A program made the translations under genes and the position numbers. This document shows, one piece after another, positions 15,467 to 53,999 of a stretch of DNA of 64,000 bases (position 1 is its first letter; every line of letters begins with the position of its first letter). The DNA lies in NCBI GenBank assembly GCA_034670405.1, contig JAXDDX010000003.1:4226501-4290500 (forward strand), written 5' to 3'. The DNA comes from Hoplostethus atlanticus (taxonomy: Eukaryota > Chordata > Actinopteri > Trachichthyiformes > Trachichthyidae). The notes below the pieces were generated by a model. That model did no database searches. It saw only the letters and a program-made list of their open reading frames with translations, and was not told the DNA's origin.

Positions 15467-16527
15467 GGAGAAGGAAGGAAATGGAGGGGCGGTACCGTGA
15501 GAAGGAGCCAGTCCAGAGATGTAATTGGTACCTTTCCTTTTTTAGACAACATTTCTTACTTACTGAGTACCAGCAAATGAGTCAAGGGCACAGCGTGCTT
15601 TACAGCGACGCTCATACACTCTCACAGCGTTCATCATACTTTCCCTTTGTAGTTTTCACTTTGAAGGGGGTTTGAGTTTCTCTCCTGCCTTTGATCCCCG
15701 ATGTCGGCTACTGGTCATGCGCAACCACCACAAGCTGGACAGGAACTAGAAGAGTCCGACTTGCTAGTATTTCATTCTTCCAAGTTCATTTGATTTTTTT
15801 ATTTCCTATAAATTGTTGCTGAATTGTTTTAAACCCCTTATAAGGATATGTGGGTGGTCCTTTGCCCCCCTTTCTCTCGTTCACTGCACCTACATCTGTT
15901 TCTTCCCCTATCATGCATTGTTTAGTTTAGATGATAACTCAAAAAGACCGAGGGGTTTCTTCAAAGACAGTTTGGGAGGGGTTTTAAAAAAAAAGAGACG
16001 AGAGAGGAAGAGAGAGAAAAGAAAAGATCGAGCAAGAGATATGGTCGGCTGACTCGAACGCCGATAACCATCTCTGCTTGAACTGCAGGTGTGAGGCGAG
16101 AGGGACGGCTGCAGGGAGACAGGTGAAGAGGGGGAAACCTGTCACTTCTGCTTACCTGATAACATCCAGAGAGCTGTAAACACTCCAGAGGATCTCACAC
16201 GGAAATCTGACATCTTTATTTACGCGGACTAGTATCGCACCTCATATTTGTGTGTGTAATTGTGTGTGTGCGCGTCTGTAATAGGGGGGTAACAGCATTT
16301 CAACAACATCATTTTCCAGCATGTGCAATAAATACCCATTTGGTGTGTGTACGTGTTGTTAAAGTTATTATTATGGGATGTTAAAGTAACCTGAGTACAT
16401 TAAAATGAAGCAACTATAAACTAAGACCATAACCAAGTCCAAAATCCTTAAAGAGAAATGAAAATAAAAAACCCTGATGAAGAATTAAAACTCAAACTAA
16501 TATCTGTGGTTGCCAAACTAACTGAAA

Positions 16528-33084: not shown

Positions 33085-33380
33085 CCCCGCTGATGTCAGG
33101 ACAGCAGAGTCGCTGCCCATCTTTGGCCCAGGCTGAAAATCCACCTCTTCAAGAAACACTACCCTGACCCTTCCTCTTAGCACTTGCTTATTTGTCTTAA
33201 ATAAAAAGTAGGTAGATAACTTATTGTACTTTTACCCTAGCACTGGCTCTGCTCTTAGATGCTTGTTTAGGAAGGAAATGCACTTACGAGTTCTGGTGAC
33301 CTGTTGAATGCACTTACTGTAAGTCGCTTTGGATAAAAGCGTCTGCTAAATGCCTGTAATGCAATGTAATGTAATGTATA
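33085..33380 (+). mobile_element. 3' end of an L2-type LINE (or a SINE sharing its tail)
   Basis: One frame near 33100-33175 gives WPRLKIHLFKKHYP, like the C-terminus of fish LINE polyproteins. The conserved tail CGCTTTGGATAAAAGCGTCT follows, ending in AATGTAATGTAATGTA repeats, as at the 3' ends of L2-like LINEs. A second copy lies reversed at 49088-49320. Confidence 0.6.
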
Positions 33381-42900: not shown

Positions 42901-45000
42901 ACAGCATCGTACCCCATCAGAACCACCACTCGCTGAGGGCCCAGGTACACGGTCATCACAGGGCCATGTCTTTCCCTGAGCTGGAGGTTTAGCAAAGCAA
43001 CAAACACTCATTCCATTCCTGCCCAGACAAGCCCACAAATAGACAAAGGAAAATGCATAAAAGCACTGGCACTAAAATCTAATGCTAACATTGTTTTCCC
43101 ATTAGAGTAATTTCTGTAAAACAAATGACAAATGTAAGAGGTGTCCCTCCTGGCCTTTGGAGTAGAATATTTTGATATTAGTTTTGGCTCCTTGATCTTT
43201 TGATTGTTGTAATGTAGTTAGTTTTATTCTTGTTTTTTTGTTTTTCCAGTAAAATGCTGTTATTAGTGTGTCTAGTGTGTTGAACCATTTTGCAGTTGGT
43301 TGGATTGGGATCACTGTAAATTAGTAGGTGATTTTTGGTAATGCCATCATCTTTACAGTGGCAATACGTCCCATGATGGATAGTGGTAATGTCATCCATC
43401 CATCTAGGTCATCTTGTATTGTTTTTAATAGTAGCCATCACCATCATAGTCAACCACTATAACCTACAGCTACCTCAGAGAGAATTGGGACAGTGTCAAA
43501 CAATTGTAAACACGTACGAAGTAAACAGAACCTTAGTAACAGGATACCAATAAGTTCCCACGTTAGGGAAGTCATGCATTAGTATGGAAAGCAACAATGG
43601 CTTACTGGGAAATGTAGTCCAAGTCAAGGTAAACAAACGAGTGTAGACTAGGTTAGCCAGTTCGGCTAGCTCACCTAGTCTCTTCACACATTACTTGGAG
43701 TGAGAGAGGAGAGTTCCCCGGCCCGACGTAGAATCTGATTGCGAATGTGAAAGTAGTGTACTCTTAGGACAAATGGTCGGTGTGCATCTCCCTCTTTGGG
43801 CTGGTCCCGCAGCGTACGATGGGCTCGATCTAGCAGGGGCTTTTCGTCCAGGCGAACTATTTCCTCTAGTAGTTGGGCAATAAACTCAGTAGGACGAGGC
43901 CCCTCCAACCCCTCCGGTAGACCCACCAACTGAATATTATTTCTTCTGGTTCTCCCCTCCAGGTCCTCGCATCCGGTCATCCAGATGTTTAACTTGAGCC
44001 ATCAGCTTGCTAACTGTAGCCGCTAACTCCGTTATCCGGCCACTATGGTCTGTAGCTGCTAGCTCAAGCTCTAGCATAGTTTGTCCGTGTTGTTCGACCT
44101 GTTCTTGCAATGGTTCTATCGACTCTTTTAGTTCTTTTCGGACAGAGCAAATCTCGGAGCGGGGAAGTGGAAGACAAAGAGTCAAGTTTCCCAAAGATGT
44201 CAGCTTTCAGGGAGTACATCATAGTTTGCAAAAGTTCGGCATTGAGTGTGTTATCAGCATTAGCCTCAACCACCTGTTGAGTAACGGGTGTTATGCCGCG
44301 TTTTGCATGCACGCCGAGATGTGCATCCAGGAAAAGGCGAGGCTTTGTTGCGGCCTCCTCTCGGTGGTTTGGATTTTAGACGAGCAGAAGACATTTTGGT
44401 CGTTTTGGTTTATAAAAAAAAGTCACATACAACAAATTTTAAGTATATGTTTATGTTTTCCAACTATAAATGACAAGAACCGTGCAGGAAATATGAATAA
44501 GTCACATTCTCAGGAGCAACGGGGAAACGCGTCTTACATCCTTGGCGCTCCTCCACCGACTTGACGCACTTAACAAGCAAAACTTATCATGACAACCCAA
44601 AACACTAGCTTGTAAACCAAATAACAGGTTACCATCGGCGTCTTTGCCCAGGTAGAAGGCGTTTACACTTTGTCTCCATGAATGCAGAAGCACATGGCTC
44701 TGACGTATCTGACTCTTCCTCTACAGACTCCTTGGCTAACCACTGAGTCTTGCTAAATTGTTTGTGTTACATTGTCACATTCTGGTCTGCATCGTTGTGA
44801 ACAAGTTACTATCAATCTCAAGCTCTCACCTTCAGCAGAGTTTTGAAGGGCGCTCTTTTGTCCAGCTGTGGCAGGTTTCCTATGAGAGGAAAAGCAGTGG
44901 GTCCTGGAGGTAAACGGTACTGTCTAGAGTTCCTCACACTGAACAGCCACAGCAGAGCTAAGATTAGCCCTGCCAAGATCAATGTGCCAGAGACCTCCAT
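39934..45000 (-). CDS. Cytochrome P450 family 2 monooxygenase, intact, nine exons
   Basis: A microsomal haem monooxygenase of the CYP2 family, oxidising xenobiotics or lipids with electrons from P450 reductase (family knowledge). Exons in transcript order: 44830-45000, 42818-42980, 42432-42581, 42109-42269, 41439-41615, 41094-41235, 40595-40782, 40358-40499, 39934-40121. All phases fit, giving 493 aa in the nine-exon pattern of CYP2 genes. Residues 5-20 are the membrane anchor, followed by the PPGP hinge (31-34). The I-helix AGTETT is at 298-303, EVQR (the ExxR of the K-helix) at 355-358 and the haem loop FSAGKRACVG at 429-438 with Cys436. An ATG four codons upstream is also in frame. I chose 45000 because the tandem copy starts at the same MEVSGT. 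The position near tgfb1 suggests the fish relatives (CYP2X/CYP2Y type) of the human 19q CYP2 cluster, but the subfamily is not proven. Confidence 0.93.
41895..42012 (-). repeat. Dispersed fish repeat in a CYP2 intron
   Basis: The stretch with GTCTTGCCCAAGACACTTTA and GGGCTTGAACCCAGATCCTC resembles a common fish repeat. A shorter relative lies near 38545-38580 (CTTGCTCAAGGACACTTCAG). Orientation and family are uncertain. Confidence 0.4.
43102..43430 (-). mobile_element. L1-type LINE ORF2 fragment (copy A) in CYP2 intron 1
   Basis: The minus strand encodes [20 protein letters not shown] followed by [17 protein letters not shown], the C-terminal part of a fish L1-like ORF2 polyprotein past the reverse transcriptase. 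Upstream in the element, MDDITTIH and related residues continue the frame with breaks. It is non-functional. The same region recurs at 47045-47170. Confidence 0.75.
43684..44395 (-). pseudogene. L1-type LINE ORF1 protein remnant in CYP2 intron 1
   Basis: The minus strand carries a broken ORF1 of a fish L1-like element. It begins around 44390 ([15 protein letters not shown]), then frameshifts into a segment with [18 protein letters not shown], a coiled coil. After another shift come [20 protein letters not shown] and [11 protein letters not shown], the RNA-binding domain signature of L1 ORF1p. At least two frame changes are needed, so it is dead. It likely belongs to the same insertion as the ORF2 piece at 43102-43430, with the sequence between them missing. 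Confidence 0.8.
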
Positions 45001-45278
45001 GATGCTCTCCACAAGAAAAATATCCTACTGCGTGTCTCGCTGGATTCCTTTTATGGTTGTGTCCAAACTAGTCAGGGAGAGCTTTGATAATGCTCATGCT
45101 GGTACTGCTACCTTCGGCCTGGTTGATTCTGGTAGATAAGATAGTTGGCTGGAATACTGTTGGGGCAGAAGTGAACCACGTGACTCTTAGTAGTGGAGCT
45201 CTGGACCTTAGCGCTTTTTTTAGCGCTTTTTTTTTTGTTATGGAAAGTTCAGAGAGGATTATATGCATATATTGATAT

Positions 45279-46101: not shown

Positions 46102-46798
46102 TGGAGGACCAGAACTGACTTAACTATAAATGAATGAATGAATGTATCTATAAATAAATAAATAAATCAAATCAAATCAACTAATCAGTGTATATATATA
46201 GAAATAAAATAATGCATTCATGCACACAGTAATAAATAATTAAATAGATGAAATCTGGTGTAAATGTATATTTCTGTATTTTTTTCCTATTTATTTATTG
46301 TCTCATTAATTTATTTCTGTTATATTTATTTACTTATTTGTGTATTTATTCCTCTGATAATTTAATTCTGTATTTATACATTTCTCTTTTTATCTATTTC
46401 CTTATATTAATGCATTTTCTGTATATATTCCTTTCCCTATTTATTAATTTATTTCTGTATTTCCTTGTCCCTATGATAATGAGGGGGCGGTCCATCAGAG
46501 CTGGTCATGGTTTTCCCTTGCTCCCATTGGTTGATCGGTCTTATAACTACGGAATTCAACTCTCGGGAATAAATACACAAATAAGTAAATAGAGAAATAA
46601 ATATAAACAGAAATAAATGAATGAGACAAATAAATAGGACACAAAATACAGAAATATACATTTATACCAGATTTCATCTATTTATTTATTTATTACTGTG
46701 TGCATTAATGCATTATTTTATTTATTTCTATATTTATACACTGATTAGTTGATTTTATTTATTCATTTATTTATAGTTAAGTCAGTTTTGGCTCTCCA
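46102..46798. mobile_element. Palindromic MITE with long inverted repeats and TA target duplication
   Basis: About 697 bp. The left end TGGAGGACCAGAACTGACTT is matched by the inverse of the right end, TGGAGAGCCAAAACTGACTT. Similarity continues inwards for about 240 bp (arms about 46102-46353 and 46563-46798), all AT-rich with ATTTATTT repeats. A TA dinucleotide flanks both sides (46100-46101 and 46799-46800), as in Tc1/mariner-type insertions. It splits an L1 ORF2 frame. No transposase is encoded. The central 200 bp includes a GC-richer block near 46480-46560. Confidence 0.8.
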
Positions 46799-47309: not shown

Positions 47310-50300
47310 TCAACGTGGGGTGGCGATGATCTGGATATCACGGGGCACATTGGTGAAGCTGCTGTACACAGGGCTGAGGTCTACACTCTCAGGGCCCCCA
47401 GGGCAGGAGAAGGTGAAGCGCTTCAGCTAGTGAAACTATGAAGATGAAAAGCTCCATGCGAGCCAGAGACTCTCCGACACAGACTCTCTTCCCTGGGGAA
47501 AGATGAAATCACAAACAAAGCACTGCAAGAGAAAATAGGTGCTTGAGCTTAAAGGGCTTAAAAGTTTTTACTGTTCATCAGGAGGGTTATTGATCAATAC
47601 CAGTGACTCCCACCTCCTTGATTTAATTATTAGCTGCCCACAACCAGGTGTGAACCAAAAAGGCTGAGGTCCACAGAATTGTATATTTGAAAACTCTTAA
47701 TGTGAATTTTAAAAAGAGGTTTCTGAGTTTTGTGTTTGCGCTTTACCTGCAGAAAATACCATGAATGCAGGGTTTTTCTTAAAGTTTCCATTCTGGTCCA
47801 GGAAGTGCTGAGGGTTAAAGGACCAGGGGGTCGCCCTAGTGTTGTTTCTCTCTCAGTACAGAGTGCAGCATGGGAATGATAATTGTACCCTGTTGAGAAG
47901 AGATGTCATCTGTTAATATAAGACAATTATGTAATAGGCGTCTTGTAATTCTCTGAAATGTAAAGTGTATATATTGAACATTGTGTTAAAGCCTGCAATC
48001 TTTGCACATTTTGCACTATTTCTGGAAAACAACAATAATGAAATCAGTGTACCTTGGGAATTGTGTAGCCCCTGAAATTGATGTCCTGTAATGCACAGTG
48101 AGGGAGGCTGTAGGGGGCAATATCCAGAAAACGCTGCACTTCATGGATGAATGCATGTGTGAAGGGGAGAGACTTCCTGTCCTCCATAGTGGGACACCGC
48201 TCTCGTCCTATCACACTGTCAATCTCCTGCTGCATTTGCTCTGAAGGGGAAAAACAAACAGGATGGAGGCACAAATCTAATGTTATGAATGTCATTAGGC
48301 AAGTGTTGAGTGGCTGATTCAATTCCTGACCAGGAAGTATCTAGTATTTTTTGGCAGCCTTTTTAGGTGACCTACCCTGTATGTTTGGGTATTTGATGAG
48401 TGCACTGAGTGCATATCTGAGAGTAGTGTTGGTGGTCTGTGTTCCTGCCACGAACAGATTCACCACTACAGACACCAAGTTCTCATAGTGGAACTCAGTT
48501 GAGGGATTGTCCTTTTCCTAAAATGACAAAACAGGAACAATTGAACAGTTTCGTTCCAAAAACGAGACACCTACACTGACTGATTTAAAGTTAATCTTAT
48601 TATGGATATAGGCTATTTTAAGACCATTGTCTATAAACTGCTAATTCTTGAGGAGTAGTCTAGATTTTTATAATGGTGAGTAATATTCAGGAAATAATAT
48701 CATTTTATGAAAATGGATTTGGAGTTTTTGGAAAAAAAAAACAATGACACTGCTTGATTGTGATAAGATAAGGTAAGATACAGCTTAGGTCCACGACTCC
48801 AAAGAACAAATGATAATGAAATGCTACCCAACCTGACTGAGCCGGGTGAGGAAGCAGTCGATGTAGTCTCTTGGGGAGTTGGGGTTGGCCGTCTCATGGT
48901 GCTCTTCGATCTTCCTCATGATAAACTCTCTCACCTCATCTATCTGGGCAAAAATGGTGTGCTGGTGGCCTGGCAGACGCTCCATGATCCAGGGAAAGAT
49001 ATTGTACAGCTATAGGAGGGAATCAGAGGGAGCCAGGGTGCATAGGGTTGTTTCTCATGATTTAGGATCTGACATACAAGGGTGTTGAATTACATTACAT
49101 TACATTACAGGCATTTAGCAGACGCTTTTATCCAAAGCGACTTACAATAAGTGCATTCAACATAGGTAGGCAAGACAACTACTAGTCACCAGAAATCATA
49201 AGTGCATTTCCTCCCTAAACAAGCATAAGAGCAGAACCAGCACTGAGGTAAAAGTGCAATAAGTTAACTACCTACTTTTTAATTAAATGAGACAAATAAG
49301 TAAATCAAATAAACAGAGCTAATAAATGAATATTTGAAGGGTTTCATTCAAAAATGCTGTGTATTAATTTTGAAAAATATGTTACTGTATTTCCATTGAC
49401 CAATACTTCAAAAAATACCGATTATATATATTGTACTGTTTTGTAACCAAAGTGTGTTAAGATAACTAAAATACTCAATAATAATCCATAGTGAGTTTTT
49501 TAAGTCAGTGTCACATGAATGAATTGGTGGATATTTCACTTACACCTGAAAACCCTTGATTCTCTAATTCATTAAAAATTACACACTGCTATAATTTCCA
49601 CCATTTTACTATACTGCATAATCCACCTTTTTTGGAATGATATGCAGGATCACTTTCTTCAGTCTATCTCCCTTTCCCTGCCCGAGTGCCACCTCCTCTT
49701 ACCTGGCCCATAGGACTGCTGGCAAAGGTTATAAACTCGGTCATGTTGTGGAGGAGCCGGAGGAAGTGCTTGTCATCGTAGCTGAAGCGCTGGCCAAACA
49801 CCAGGCAGCAGATCACGTTGGACACCGCGCAGCACAATAAGAAGGCGGGATCAAATGGTGTGGCTGGAGCCAAGGGGACAAACACTGTGAGCCAAGCCTC
49901 AGTGTGACACAGTCTTGCATTACAGCAGGTTATGTCTCATGTTCTAGATTTACTTTGTACACACTCAGAAAGAAGGACGGATCAGCTGCAACCCACCTAG
50001 CAATCCAACATTGCCTCCATATTCTATTCCTAATTTTTGACTGAGGATCATTGATTCATCAGATTGTGTAATATTTCTCTCGTAAAGCAACCCTGTACAC
50101 AATATGTGGACTTGGAAGTAACAGTTGAAAACCGTATACACCTTTGAATGCATCTATGCGCGCTGCCAGGTGCTTGCTCTCCTCCTGTATCCACTCCTCC
50201 ATCCCCTTGCGTCCCATCCCAAAGTCTCGGAACGTCGTCAGAGTGAAACTTCGCAACTGGTGCCAGCGCTCCCCGTTACTGATGCTCATCCCTGAGAAGG

Positions 50301-50988
50301 TAAGAGAAAGAGGCTTGTTGACCAACTACATGGTAGCATGCAAGAGTGCAAACTGGCCATTGGATACAGAGAGTGGGAGTCACAAGTCTGTAACAAAACC
50401 ATTTATTTCATGACACTGACAACAGACCGAACATACCATAGCCTTTGGTACTTTTCATCATGAGCGGCACTGCCCATCTGTTCATGAAGTCATTTGCCTG
50501 GTCCACCAGGGCATCCTTCAGTGTCATGTCCCACCAAAACCACAGTCCGCTGCCAGCCCAGGTACACCGTCATCACAGGCCCGTAACGTTCACTGAGCTG
50601 GAGCATGGCATGTATTATCAGAGCAAGAAGCATTCTCATGCCAATCCAACCGTTTATATTTGTGGAGAATTGGCATTTAGACTCAAAATGAAATAGATGA
50701 CAATAGCCTACAAGGAAGAGGCAGTCTGCCTTCAGTTATTCTTGCCAGATACACCAGGATACACCGTTACATCATAAATATCTATGTGTAACGTAGAATA
50801 AATTCATTGCCAAACTCACCTTCATAATGCTTTTGAAAGGTGCATTTTTGATGCAGGTGCAGGTTTCCTATGAGAGGAAAGCCAGTGGGTCCTGGAGGTA
50901 AACGGTACTGTCTAGAGTTCTTCATAATAAACAGCCACAGCAGAGCTAAGATTAGCCCTGCCAAGATCAGTGTGCCAGAGACCTCCAT
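47310..50988 (-). pseudogene. CYP2 pseudogene, tandem copy with all nine exons but four frameshifts
   Basis: Exons aligned to the intact neighbour, in transcript order: 50820-50988, 50437-50597, 50142-50291, 49703-49863, 48833-49009, 48376-48517, 48053-48240, 47747-47889, 47310-47492. Five of them (exons 3-7) keep the same lengths and open frames. Breaks: exon 1 has lost 2 nt after FPLIGNL, exon 2 has lost 2 nt, exon 8 has gained 1 nt and exon 9 has gained 1 nt just after the haem loop ([13 protein letters not shown] is still visible). Splice sites are mostly intact, although the exon 3 and exon 5 donors differ in surrounding sequence. The start MEVSGT and PPGP survive. Young breaks and clean exon structure suggest recent loss. 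Sequencing error at all four sites is unlikely but possible. Confidence 0.88.
49088..49320 (-). mobile_element. L2-type LINE/SINE tail, reversed copy
   Basis: The reverse complement carries CGCTTTGGATAAAAGCGTCT and ends in (TGTAA)n. Unit for unit it matches the 3' half of 33181-33380 in the opposite orientation, including the stretch with GCTTGTTTAGG. It sits in an intron of the CYP2 pseudogene. A more diverged relative is at about 56345-56425. Confidence 0.65.
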
Positions 50989-51262
50989 GATCCCACTTTG
51001 TCTTCTAGTTGTCTCCAACCTGTTTGTCAGATCTTTCCTGTGGTCTGTTGTTGCCTTTGCAGAGGAAGTCTCCGGATCGGAGATGTTAATTTCAGTCGTT
51101 AAATAGTCCCGGCATCATGTGATACTCTGCCTTAGCTGACTATGAACAAAGGGCATCGGGGTCAATGTCCTCAGTCGACATTGTGGAAGGTCGGTAATAT
51201 GATGGTGAGAATACGTCGGGTTTTGGTCCAGAGACAGGGAGCTCAATATCATTTACAATTGT

Positions 51263-51470
51263 GCTGTTTTGTAACCAAAGTGTGCTAAGATAACTAATAT
51301 ACTCAATAATAATCCATAGTGAGTTTTTTTAGAAGTCAGTGTCACATTTTATCAATTGGTGGATATTTCACGTACACCTGAAAACCCTTGATTCTCTAAT
51401 TCATTAAAAAATATGTTAGAATTTCCACCATTTTAGGAATGATATGCAGGATCATCTGCATCATCTTTCC
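51263..51470 (+). repeat. Duplicated intron piece, relic of a further CYP2 copy
   Basis: This stretch is a near copy of 49433-49660, an intron of the CYP2 pseudogene, in the same orientation. Shared blocks include TTTTGTAACCAAAGTGTG, ATACTCAATAATAATCCATA and ACACCTGAAAACCCTTGATT. It lies upstream of the pseudogene, where no CYP2 exon is found, so it fits a third, mostly deleted tandem unit or a local duplication. Confidence 0.7.
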
Positions 51471-51841
51471 TTTCCTCTCTTCCATGTCAATTACTTTCCC
51501 TTCTATCATTTGTAATGGTAATAATTGTAATGATAGATGTTTTACTATAGAGTCAGATTTGACCATAACAGGATGACACCATACGTCTCAGATCCTTATA
51601 ATACAGGTAGGAACAGGTAGAAACGGGTTAGATAAGCATCCCAGTAACTTTATTTCATAGGAATATCATTACATCTTTGAATAAAATGATAATTGATGGC
51701 ATCCAAATCTGCCATGTTCACTGGGTAGGATTCAGATACAATTCTGTCAATATTGTTTCCAACATCCGATGTGTACCAAACTTTTCCCAGGTACAGATTC
51801 AAACATGGGGAATCCAGATGAATGCTTGAAATCCTTCCAGG

Positions 51842-52214
51842 GACAACCTAATCTCGACTGCAGGCCCACCTCCACAACCGCTATGTAGTACAAGTTCTCT
51901 ATGTTCCAGAGGTTTTAGAAAGCTACGTTTTGGAGCATAGCTTCTTCAACCTTTCTAATACATTCCCTGAAAATATGGGGATGATTATTTTCCCCTGTCC
52001 TGAGTAATGAGGCGTTAAGGTATTACATTTTTCATTACTCATTAATCATTACTCAGGACAGGGGAAAATAATCATCCCCATATTTTCAGGGAATGTATTA
52101 GAAAGGTTGAAGAAGCTATGCTCCAAAACGTAGCTTCCTAAAACCTCTGGAACATAGAGAACTTGTACTACATAGCGGTTGTGGAGGTGGGCCTGCAGTC
52201 GGGATTAGGTTGTC
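51842..52214. repeat. Long, nearly perfect palindrome (169-bp arms, 35-bp spacer)
   Basis: The arm 51842-52010 and the arm 52046-52214 are reverse complements with only two mismatches (51855 and 51919 relative to their partners) and no gaps. The spacer is 52011-52045. No coding frame spans the arms, no terminal motif or target duplication was recognised and I know no family for the arm sequence. It could be a recent inverted duplication, a fold-back element, a hairpin RNA source or an assembly artefact. Confidence 0.95.
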
Positions 52215-52975
52215 ATTGTCAATCATTGTCCTATCTGATCAAACCATATAAACCGCCACGCGCCCTCAGATCACAGGACACATGTATGTACTATGGCTGT
52301 CTAACTGCCTCTGGACTGAGCCCCACATATGAAATGATAGCAGTAGTAGTAACAGAACAGCATAACCCACAGAACCCCTGTGCTGCGTTACTAAACGTTT
52401 CAGAGACGGGTTTAATGTGAAACACAATCATGGATGAGGAGTACTGGCTTAACTACAAATGTGATGCAGTGGGGCTATTTTGTAAACAAGAGATCAAATA
52501 TGAGCATTCAATCTTTTAAATATTACAAAACAATTATTTTATGGTGAACCTGCATAAGACCTGTGGTTAAAATAAAGCAGGAGAAATGATCAAAACTGAT
52601 TGGACCACAGGTTTAAACAACAGGATCTAGAGTTGGATGCCACTGTCTACAGACACGGTGTTCCCCTGTGTAAATAACACTTTGGTTATTTATTTATTAA
52701 ATGTTTGGTGTCATCGCTGTGCAGGTTAAGCCATTGATCCATTAACACTTTGTGCTGCTGTTGATCTTCTCAGGACAAGAATGTGCATGTGTATAAACAG
52801 ACAAACAGGGCAGAAAGCAGGGCAAAAGGAAATCAAGCAAAGTGCACAACATATAGACCCTTTTAGCGCCTACGTCACGATTACGTCACGGTGTTAGCTG
52901 GAGGCAAAACAAAGCAAAATTGGAGGCATCGCCTCACCTCAGAGCAGCAGAGTAAGAGGCTACCGTTCACCGAAA

Positions 52976-53167
52976 ATGTCATCTTGCTGTGTTGTTGGAT
53001 GCCAGAATCGAAGGAGAGGCTCCAACTTGAAATTTTATCGTATACCAGCTGCCACTGCCAGTAAAAAAAATCGAAGACAACTATGGTTAAACGCGATAAA
53101 ACGAAAGGATTGGACTGAGGCGATCATCAAAAATGCTCGTGTTTGCAGCGCACACTTCATAGATTAA
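52976..53167 (+). pseudogene. THAP zinc-finger N-terminal fragment of a transposase-type protein
   Basis: An open frame of 63 residues starts MSSCCVVGCQN and shows the C2CH layout of a THAP DNA-binding domain: Cys near 5 and 9, FYRIP, a conserved Trp, then CSAHF. The frame stops before the AVPTF-type end of the domain and no catalytic region follows before the element's right end. It lies just inside the left end of the ISL2EU-like element, where a transposase gene is expected. It is a remnant, not a host THAP gene, though it may be a first exon whose downstream exons were deleted. Confidence 0.75.
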
Positions 53168-53322: not shown

Positions 53323-53589
53323 TCAGGTGTGTGTGTGTGTGTGTTCGGATCGCACGACACAAAACTCATCTGGTAAATCTTTGTATTTTAAGTCTTGTAC
53401 ATGACCATTCAGGACATAGTTATAGGCATCTAAAGATTTATACGCCCTCAGTTTCTCTTTACTATACACGCTTGGTTTCTCTATCAGGTAGGTGTAAATG
53501 TCTGGCCATTCCACAGTAGGTAGTCCTGTCAGATCGTCCGGCCGTCTTTTGCCTCCAGCTAAGCTCCGCCCACAAATAAACGTCATCAT
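53323..53589 (-). pseudogene. N-terminal fragment of the second protein of the ISL2EU-like element
   Basis: The minus-strand frame starts [16 protein letters not shown] close to the right end. It contains [20 protein letters not shown] and [12 protein letters not shown], a signature I recall from fish proteins with SWIM/YqaJ-type nuclease regions. The subterminal repeat encodes LAGGK in this frame. It runs into a GT/CA repeat near 53330 and has no nuclease domain, so it is truncated. Confidence 0.6.
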
Positions 53590-53999
53590 GTTTACTAACT
53601 GAAAAGGGGTCTATTCAACAAAATTATCACAGTGGTCAGATTAAAAAAGTATAAAATTACAGTGACATAATGAGACGTACAGTGGAGCACGCACTATTTC
53701 TAGTTTCCCTCCTCATGACTTGGTATCATGTTACTGTTCACCCAATTAACCTCAAAACATCCCGTGGCACGGAAAGAGTGATATAACAGTGTTCCAAGAG
53801 TCAAGATCATGAATGATTTACCTGAGGAGCATGGGCTCAAAGCCAGGAAGAACACCTTCATTAATTTATAGATTACACGTATAGATAACCAAACAATCAA
53901 TTAATTAACAATATGAATGAACAATGCCCTTATATGAAGAGGTACTGACACAAGGATTCAGATGACAATAAAAGGTATTTTAAACAGTTTCTCTCCCCC

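Follow-up and report, generated by a model that had tools for sequence, protein, structure and literature searches.

A near-perfect palindrome beside a CYP2 gene copy, probably left by foldback copying of a transposon end

Gene setting of the palindrome

The window, by which we mean the whole stretch of 64,000 nucleotides that was analysed, holds a cluster of CYP2 sequences, and within this cluster lies a long palindrome at 51842-52214. An earlier interpretation from the letters alone (the sequence-only reading) had placed the palindrome in such a cluster, and this placement is supported. The CYP2 identity is based on p450 Pfam matches in two of the three fragments tested (the first exon, 50815-50992, had none) and on structure matches, the best of which were CYP2C for one fragment. 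About 850 bp separate the palindrome from the first coding exon of the adjacent CYP2 copy, on whose 5′ side it lies, and the transposon insertion described below is about 0.56 kb 5′ of the same copy.

50815-50992, minus strand: first coding exon of the neighbouring CYP2 copy, recognised by translation and by similarity to 44825-45003

This copy extends over 47741-50992 on the minus strand, and, when read by eye against CYP2 sequence, its frame apparently shifts in exon 2 and in exon 8 (numbering by position). It is probably a pseudogene, judging from these exons, and the earlier description of the palindrome as neighbouring a lost gene copy is correct provided that the shifts are not assembly errors.

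Other elements are scattered around the CYP2 copy. The only gathering-level Rfam matches across the window were two UnaL2 LINE 3′ tails (RF00436), at 33306-33359 on the plus strand and at 49105-49159 on the minus strand, the second of which falls between CYP2 exon-like blocks. Just right of the palindrome, a frame at 52898-53164 (plus) matches the THAP domain of Pfam (PF05485, E 6.4e-14), and a minus-strand frame at 53326-53610, for which a Pfam search gave no match, presumably resembles fish transposon proteins. In addition, 51258-51454, on the 5′ side of the CYP2 copy, is about 90% identical to 49430-49652 in its intron; this sequence has no long frame and may either be what is left of an additional copy or belong to a repeat that was not recognised.

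Geometry and predicted fold

The two arms of the palindrome are as follows:

51842-52010, plus strand: left palindrome arm, the inner part of a left terminal inverted repeat (TIR), read as the original
52046-52214, minus strand: right palindrome arm, 51842-52010 copied in inverted form, lacking the outer section of the TIR

The arms are 169 nt each and ungapped, with 35 nt between them, and they mismatch at two places only: T at 51854 opposes 52202, and A at 51919 opposes 52137. This confirms the arm length, mismatches and spacer first described for the site. The longest perfect stem is 91 bp. Elsewhere in the window, perfect stems reach at most 17 bp, and the longest ones in ten Markov-1 random sequences of the window's length are 10-12 bp, all at a spacer of up to 60 bp. 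When 51822-52234 is treated as RNA, the predicted minimum free energy is -330.1 kcal/mol; 100 shuffles averaged -102.3 (z -38). A coding origin of the arms was considered and rejected, as the arms hold only short frames. Elsewhere in the window, 46192-46282 and 46643-46733 form one further notable inverted repeat, more widely spaced and less perfect, of 91 nt at 93% identity and with 360 nt between its halves.

The transposon family that supplies the arm

We searched the window's own assembly (632.8 Mb in 1161 contigs) and found at least 42 matches to the left arm, two of which are the window's own arms, so that at least 40 others exist; 35 of the 42 cover all 169 bases, and identities range from 80 to 100%. 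The sequence immediately outside the arm, 51537-51841, has at least 43 matches, one being the window itself. These counts are lower bounds, and some of the matches fall in one locus. For comparison, 40 loci were fetched, some of which are apparently duplicates of one another, and in many of them 51550-52031 corresponds to a single aligned block of about 440-525 bp, in which the outer TIR part adjoins the arm directly. What the window carries at 51550-52031 is one such dispersed DNA transposon copy, represented by its left half, with these parts on either side of the left arm:

51550-51841, plus strand: outer part of the left TIR, with the terminus GAGTCAGATTT at 51550; absent on the right side
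52011-52031, plus strand: family sequence running inward from the left arm; BLAST alignments to many copies reach 52029-52038

Comparison with these copies shows that the left arm comes from the inner part of the left TIR in a copy of a non-autonomous DNA transposon, and the earlier remark that no transposon ends were to be seen has to be given up, as the arm sits inside a dispersed transposon end.

The family terminus reads GAGTCAGATTTTACCA, and its version in the window reads GAGTCAGATTTGACCA. Seven of the fetched elements have both ends, of the type GAGTCAGATTT...AAATCTGACTC, and are flanked by a 4-bp target duplication that is exact in four of them and alike in three of its four bases in the other three. 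Their lengths are 522, 596, 629, 809, 1182, 1660, and 1732 bp; for MITE-like elements, the available text of one report (PMC5199201) gives a length under 800 bp. No transposase-like frame was recognised by eye in the four loci read for it (L012, L014, L022, and L043). By these sequence characters, the family is a cut-and-paste type, non-autonomous (MITE-like) DNA transposon with long TIRs. The Sola superfamily makes a 4-bp target duplication, as other superfamilies also do, and membership would call for a related DDD transposase with the same termini; from its 4-bp duplication and its GAG start, the family may be a candidate for the Sola superfamily. One of the fetched elements, in L029 (G000:C243:107000-110000, positions 1214-1842), is 629 bp long and has an exact 4-bp target duplication, AGCT.

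On the right side of the palindrome the situation is different. No second full terminus was found in the window, where the only candidate was an 11-base near match at 16203, which is at chance level, and none of the 40 fetched loci matches the 2.8 kb that follow 52214. A complete fold-back element was rejected as a description of the site, because the window has no second full terminus and the palindrome was not seen again in these loci. We scanned the 40 fetched loci for palindromes among the first four self-matches per locus, and none with a short spacer like that of the window was seen among the self-matches listed. What was seen were self-palindromes within the arms themselves, 42-43 bp long with 84-86% identity, in L024, L025, L027, L031, and L032, and weaker, longer ones in other parts of the loci, of which the longest, in L028, has 236 bp at 73%. 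Where family ends are paired, they stand no closer than 109 bp, a value found in L029 for a match of 42 bp; in the other loci the gap is at least 160 bp, compared with 35 bp in the window. A match to a known fold-back family with many genomic copies had been named beforehand as the result that would speak against the sequence-only reading, and the search of the arm against the genome bears this out only in part: the arm is repeated, with its 40 or more other matches, but the palindrome with its short spacer was not seen again in the 40 loci.

Which arm is the original

Three kinds of observation bear on the relationship between the two arms. The first concerns the flanks, since family sequence continues outward beyond the arm in all 24 family arm rows printed with flanks and beyond the left arm of the window, whereas the outer flank of the right arm has no family sequence. 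The second is that the arms share bases that are rare in the family: at 51856 both have G, where 42 of the 42 other copies with a base there have T, and at 51927 both have G, a base found in only 1 of 37 others. The third is the direction of the two mismatches, as the changes at 51854 and 51919 are private to the left arm, and at both positions the right arm has the base usual in the family. A tree was built from 37 arms, 35 of which came from other loci (partial arms and three tandem duplicates were left out); in it the window arms are sisters, with a moderate local support of 0.81, and the right arm sits on a near-zero branch. The window arms differ at 2 of 169 positions, and the right arm differs from the nearest other copies at 2 of 107 and 4 of 169.

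The shared private bases, the mismatches confined to the left arm and the one-sided flank together indicate that the right arm is likely a local back-copy of the left. These comparisons support a secondary reverse copying of the left stretch, which would have taken place at this locus after the private mutations had arisen. The sequence-only reading had left the choice between a young, a homogenised and an artefactual palindrome; a young age, together with a local origin, is now probably the best supported, and the direction of the mismatches speaks against an artefact.

Alternative origins of the right arm

The right arm could instead be the element's original right TIR, provided that the TIRs of the source were near-identical, that its core was cut to about 35 bp and that the end beyond 52214 was lost. 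We regard this as unlikely, although several properties of the family speak for it. For instance, long TIRs come as inverted pairs, as in L014, where they align over 530 bp at 93%, and internally shortened copies occur among the fetched loci. Paired ends can also be very similar: the arms of L020 differ at 1 of 106 positions over the arm stretch (5 of 125 in a longer comparison), and in L029, the nearest relative of the window copy by terminus, the outer 108 bp pair at 98% and both ends have the G that matches window position 51561. Because this derived base is at both ends of L029, two ends may share a derived state without a palindrome. On the other hand, L029 lacks the G at 51856 and the G at 51927 in its retained arm stretches, which implies that both states arose after the split from L029, and an original right TIR would need an unsampled source with two states that are absent or nearly so in the copies examined. 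It would also require two further deletions.

The other loci with two ends likewise argue against an original right TIR. Matches in both orientations were present in 20 loci, 17 of which were comparable (L042 and L044 have no common columns and L046 has too few). In 17 of these 17, one of the two ends is closer to some other copy than to its partner in the element, so that the ends are not mutual nearest relatives, with the reservation that the 17 comparisons are not independent because L024-L027 look like duplicates. Near ties were found in L014 (17/466 against 15/446) and L029 (4/136 against 3/120).

A related proposal is that the arms are an original TIR pair that was recently homogenised by gene conversion. 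This would account for near-identical arms with shared private states, and the base common to both ends of L029 is compatible with it. Nevertheless, we find it improbable, as conversion leaves unexplained why the outer right TIR is lost exactly where the identity ends, for which a separate truncation would be needed, and the same 17 comparisons, in none of which the ends are each other's nearest relative, weigh against it as well. An assembly error or a fold-back read is very improbable as the source of the palindrome, given that the mismatches are private changes of the left arm at positions where the right arm keeps the family state and that the right arm runs into unrelated sequence, with no mirror of the outer left flank.

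Finally, a functional hairpin locus kept by selection, such as a source of endo-siRNA or a young miRNA precursor, would be in keeping with the extreme predicted fold (z -38) and with the fact that long inverted repeats can serve as Dicer substrates, yet we give it hardly any credence, since the site has no Rfam match at gathering thresholds and the near-identity of the arms needs no selection because recency accounts for it.

Junctions and a proposed foldback repair

We consider it probable that the palindrome is a local foldback back-copy of a stretch of the left TIR, that is, a repair scar beside the CYP2 copy. Three short features would be relevant to the way in which this copy was made:

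52001-52010, plus strand: 10-mer TGAGTAATGA, the inverted partner of both TCATTACTCA copies; candidate foldback annealing site
52032-52055, plus strand: inner junction, TCATTACTCA-TTAA-TCATTACTCA, a TCATTAC 7-bp tandem of 3.4 copies (Tandem Repeats Finder); candidate priming or slippage scar
52213-52230, plus strand: outer junction, a TCATTGTC-AA-TCATTGTC direct repeat; candidate end-joining filler

At the inner junction, the copies of TCATTACTCA, the reverse complement of TGAGTAATGA, occupy 52032-52041 and 52046-52055, with TTAA between them. At the outer junction, the first TCATTGTC copy straddles the end of the right arm and is followed, after a 2-bp gap, by the second. Counting simple repeats, 0.6-0.9% of window positions have repeats like those at the junctions, and the junction ones were spotted post hoc. 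The motif TTTCATT is present near the inner-junction site in many family cores. The junction repeats fit foldback priming with slippage on the inner side and end joining with filler on the outer side.

The proposed course of events would start, most likely, with a break inside the element that left a resected 3′ end. This end may then have folded back through a short inverted match, with TCATT or TCATTACTCA annealing to TGAGTAATGA, and, presumably primed in this way, it would have copied some 169 nt of the left TIR in the reverse direction, a step for which the copying itself is supported. Finally, end joining would have attached the extended end to DNA outside the element, with the loss of the remaining element. 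The earlier suggestion that the palindrome could mark a rearrangement breakpoint is in line with this course, as a rearrangement junction is probably what the site represents. Hairpin RNA from the palindrome, if predicted folding is any guide, is possible as a by-product at most.

Similar distances have been described in yeast. According to the available part of one study (PMC11724301), foldback inversions arose through an imperfect inverted microhomology of 10 nt, had a loop of 41 nt and produced copies of up to about 150 bp, and the accessible sections of another (PMC10622511) describe wild-type inverted duplications, two of three sequenced cases of which relied on a 5-bp inverted repeat whose halves are 35 bp apart.

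Comparison with known systems

As far as the available text of these two yeast reports goes (PMC11724301, PMC10622511), the palindrome resembles foldback inversions in that an inverted copy would have been made through a short inverted microhomology with a loop of tens of nucleotides, and in that the junction is consistent with end joining. The copy in the window, at 169 bp, is slightly longer than the upper size of about 150 bp given in the portion seen of PMC11724301. Unlike the yeast inversions, the palindrome is a fixed scar in an animal-like genome, in which the mechanism can only be inferred. There is also a likeness to template-switch hairpin mutations, which, in the accessible text of PMC8794818, yield from one event a reverse-complement repeat that can form a perfect stem; the hairpins described there, however, reach up to 59 bp and lie in rRNA genes, whereas here the copy is 169 bp and lies in a transposon end.

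Teleost Angel-type elements are MITE-like and have long TIRs. The family in the window is like MITE-like transposons with long TIRs in being multi-copy, in having no coding capacity that was recognised, and in having inverted ends and target-site duplications. In contrast to such elements, the window copy has no right end, and the palindrome is not the usual TIR arrangement of the family.

Foldback repair of a transposon relic is an expected kind of event, and it is well documented here by the sibling copies. Comparison with the sibling repeats points to one arm of this single locus as the original and to the other as the copy, so that sequence alone is enough to read how a long natural palindrome is likely to have arisen. 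A broader proposition, which we put forward as doubtful, is that copies with long TIRs could be recurrent seeds of near-perfect palindromes whenever a break in a TIR is followed by foldback on its own strand. If this were true, TIR foldback would write hairpins beside genes and thus provide a standing raw supply for small-RNA loci.

Two of the fetched loci contain family sequence in arrays. In L021 (G000:C397:55000-63500), the transposon arm occurs four times at an exact 2190-bp spacing, which corresponds to a tandem array containing the element, and at positions 798-1600 of L046 the outer TIR part is repeated many times, with spacings of about 25 bp and more, in a minisatellite-like array.
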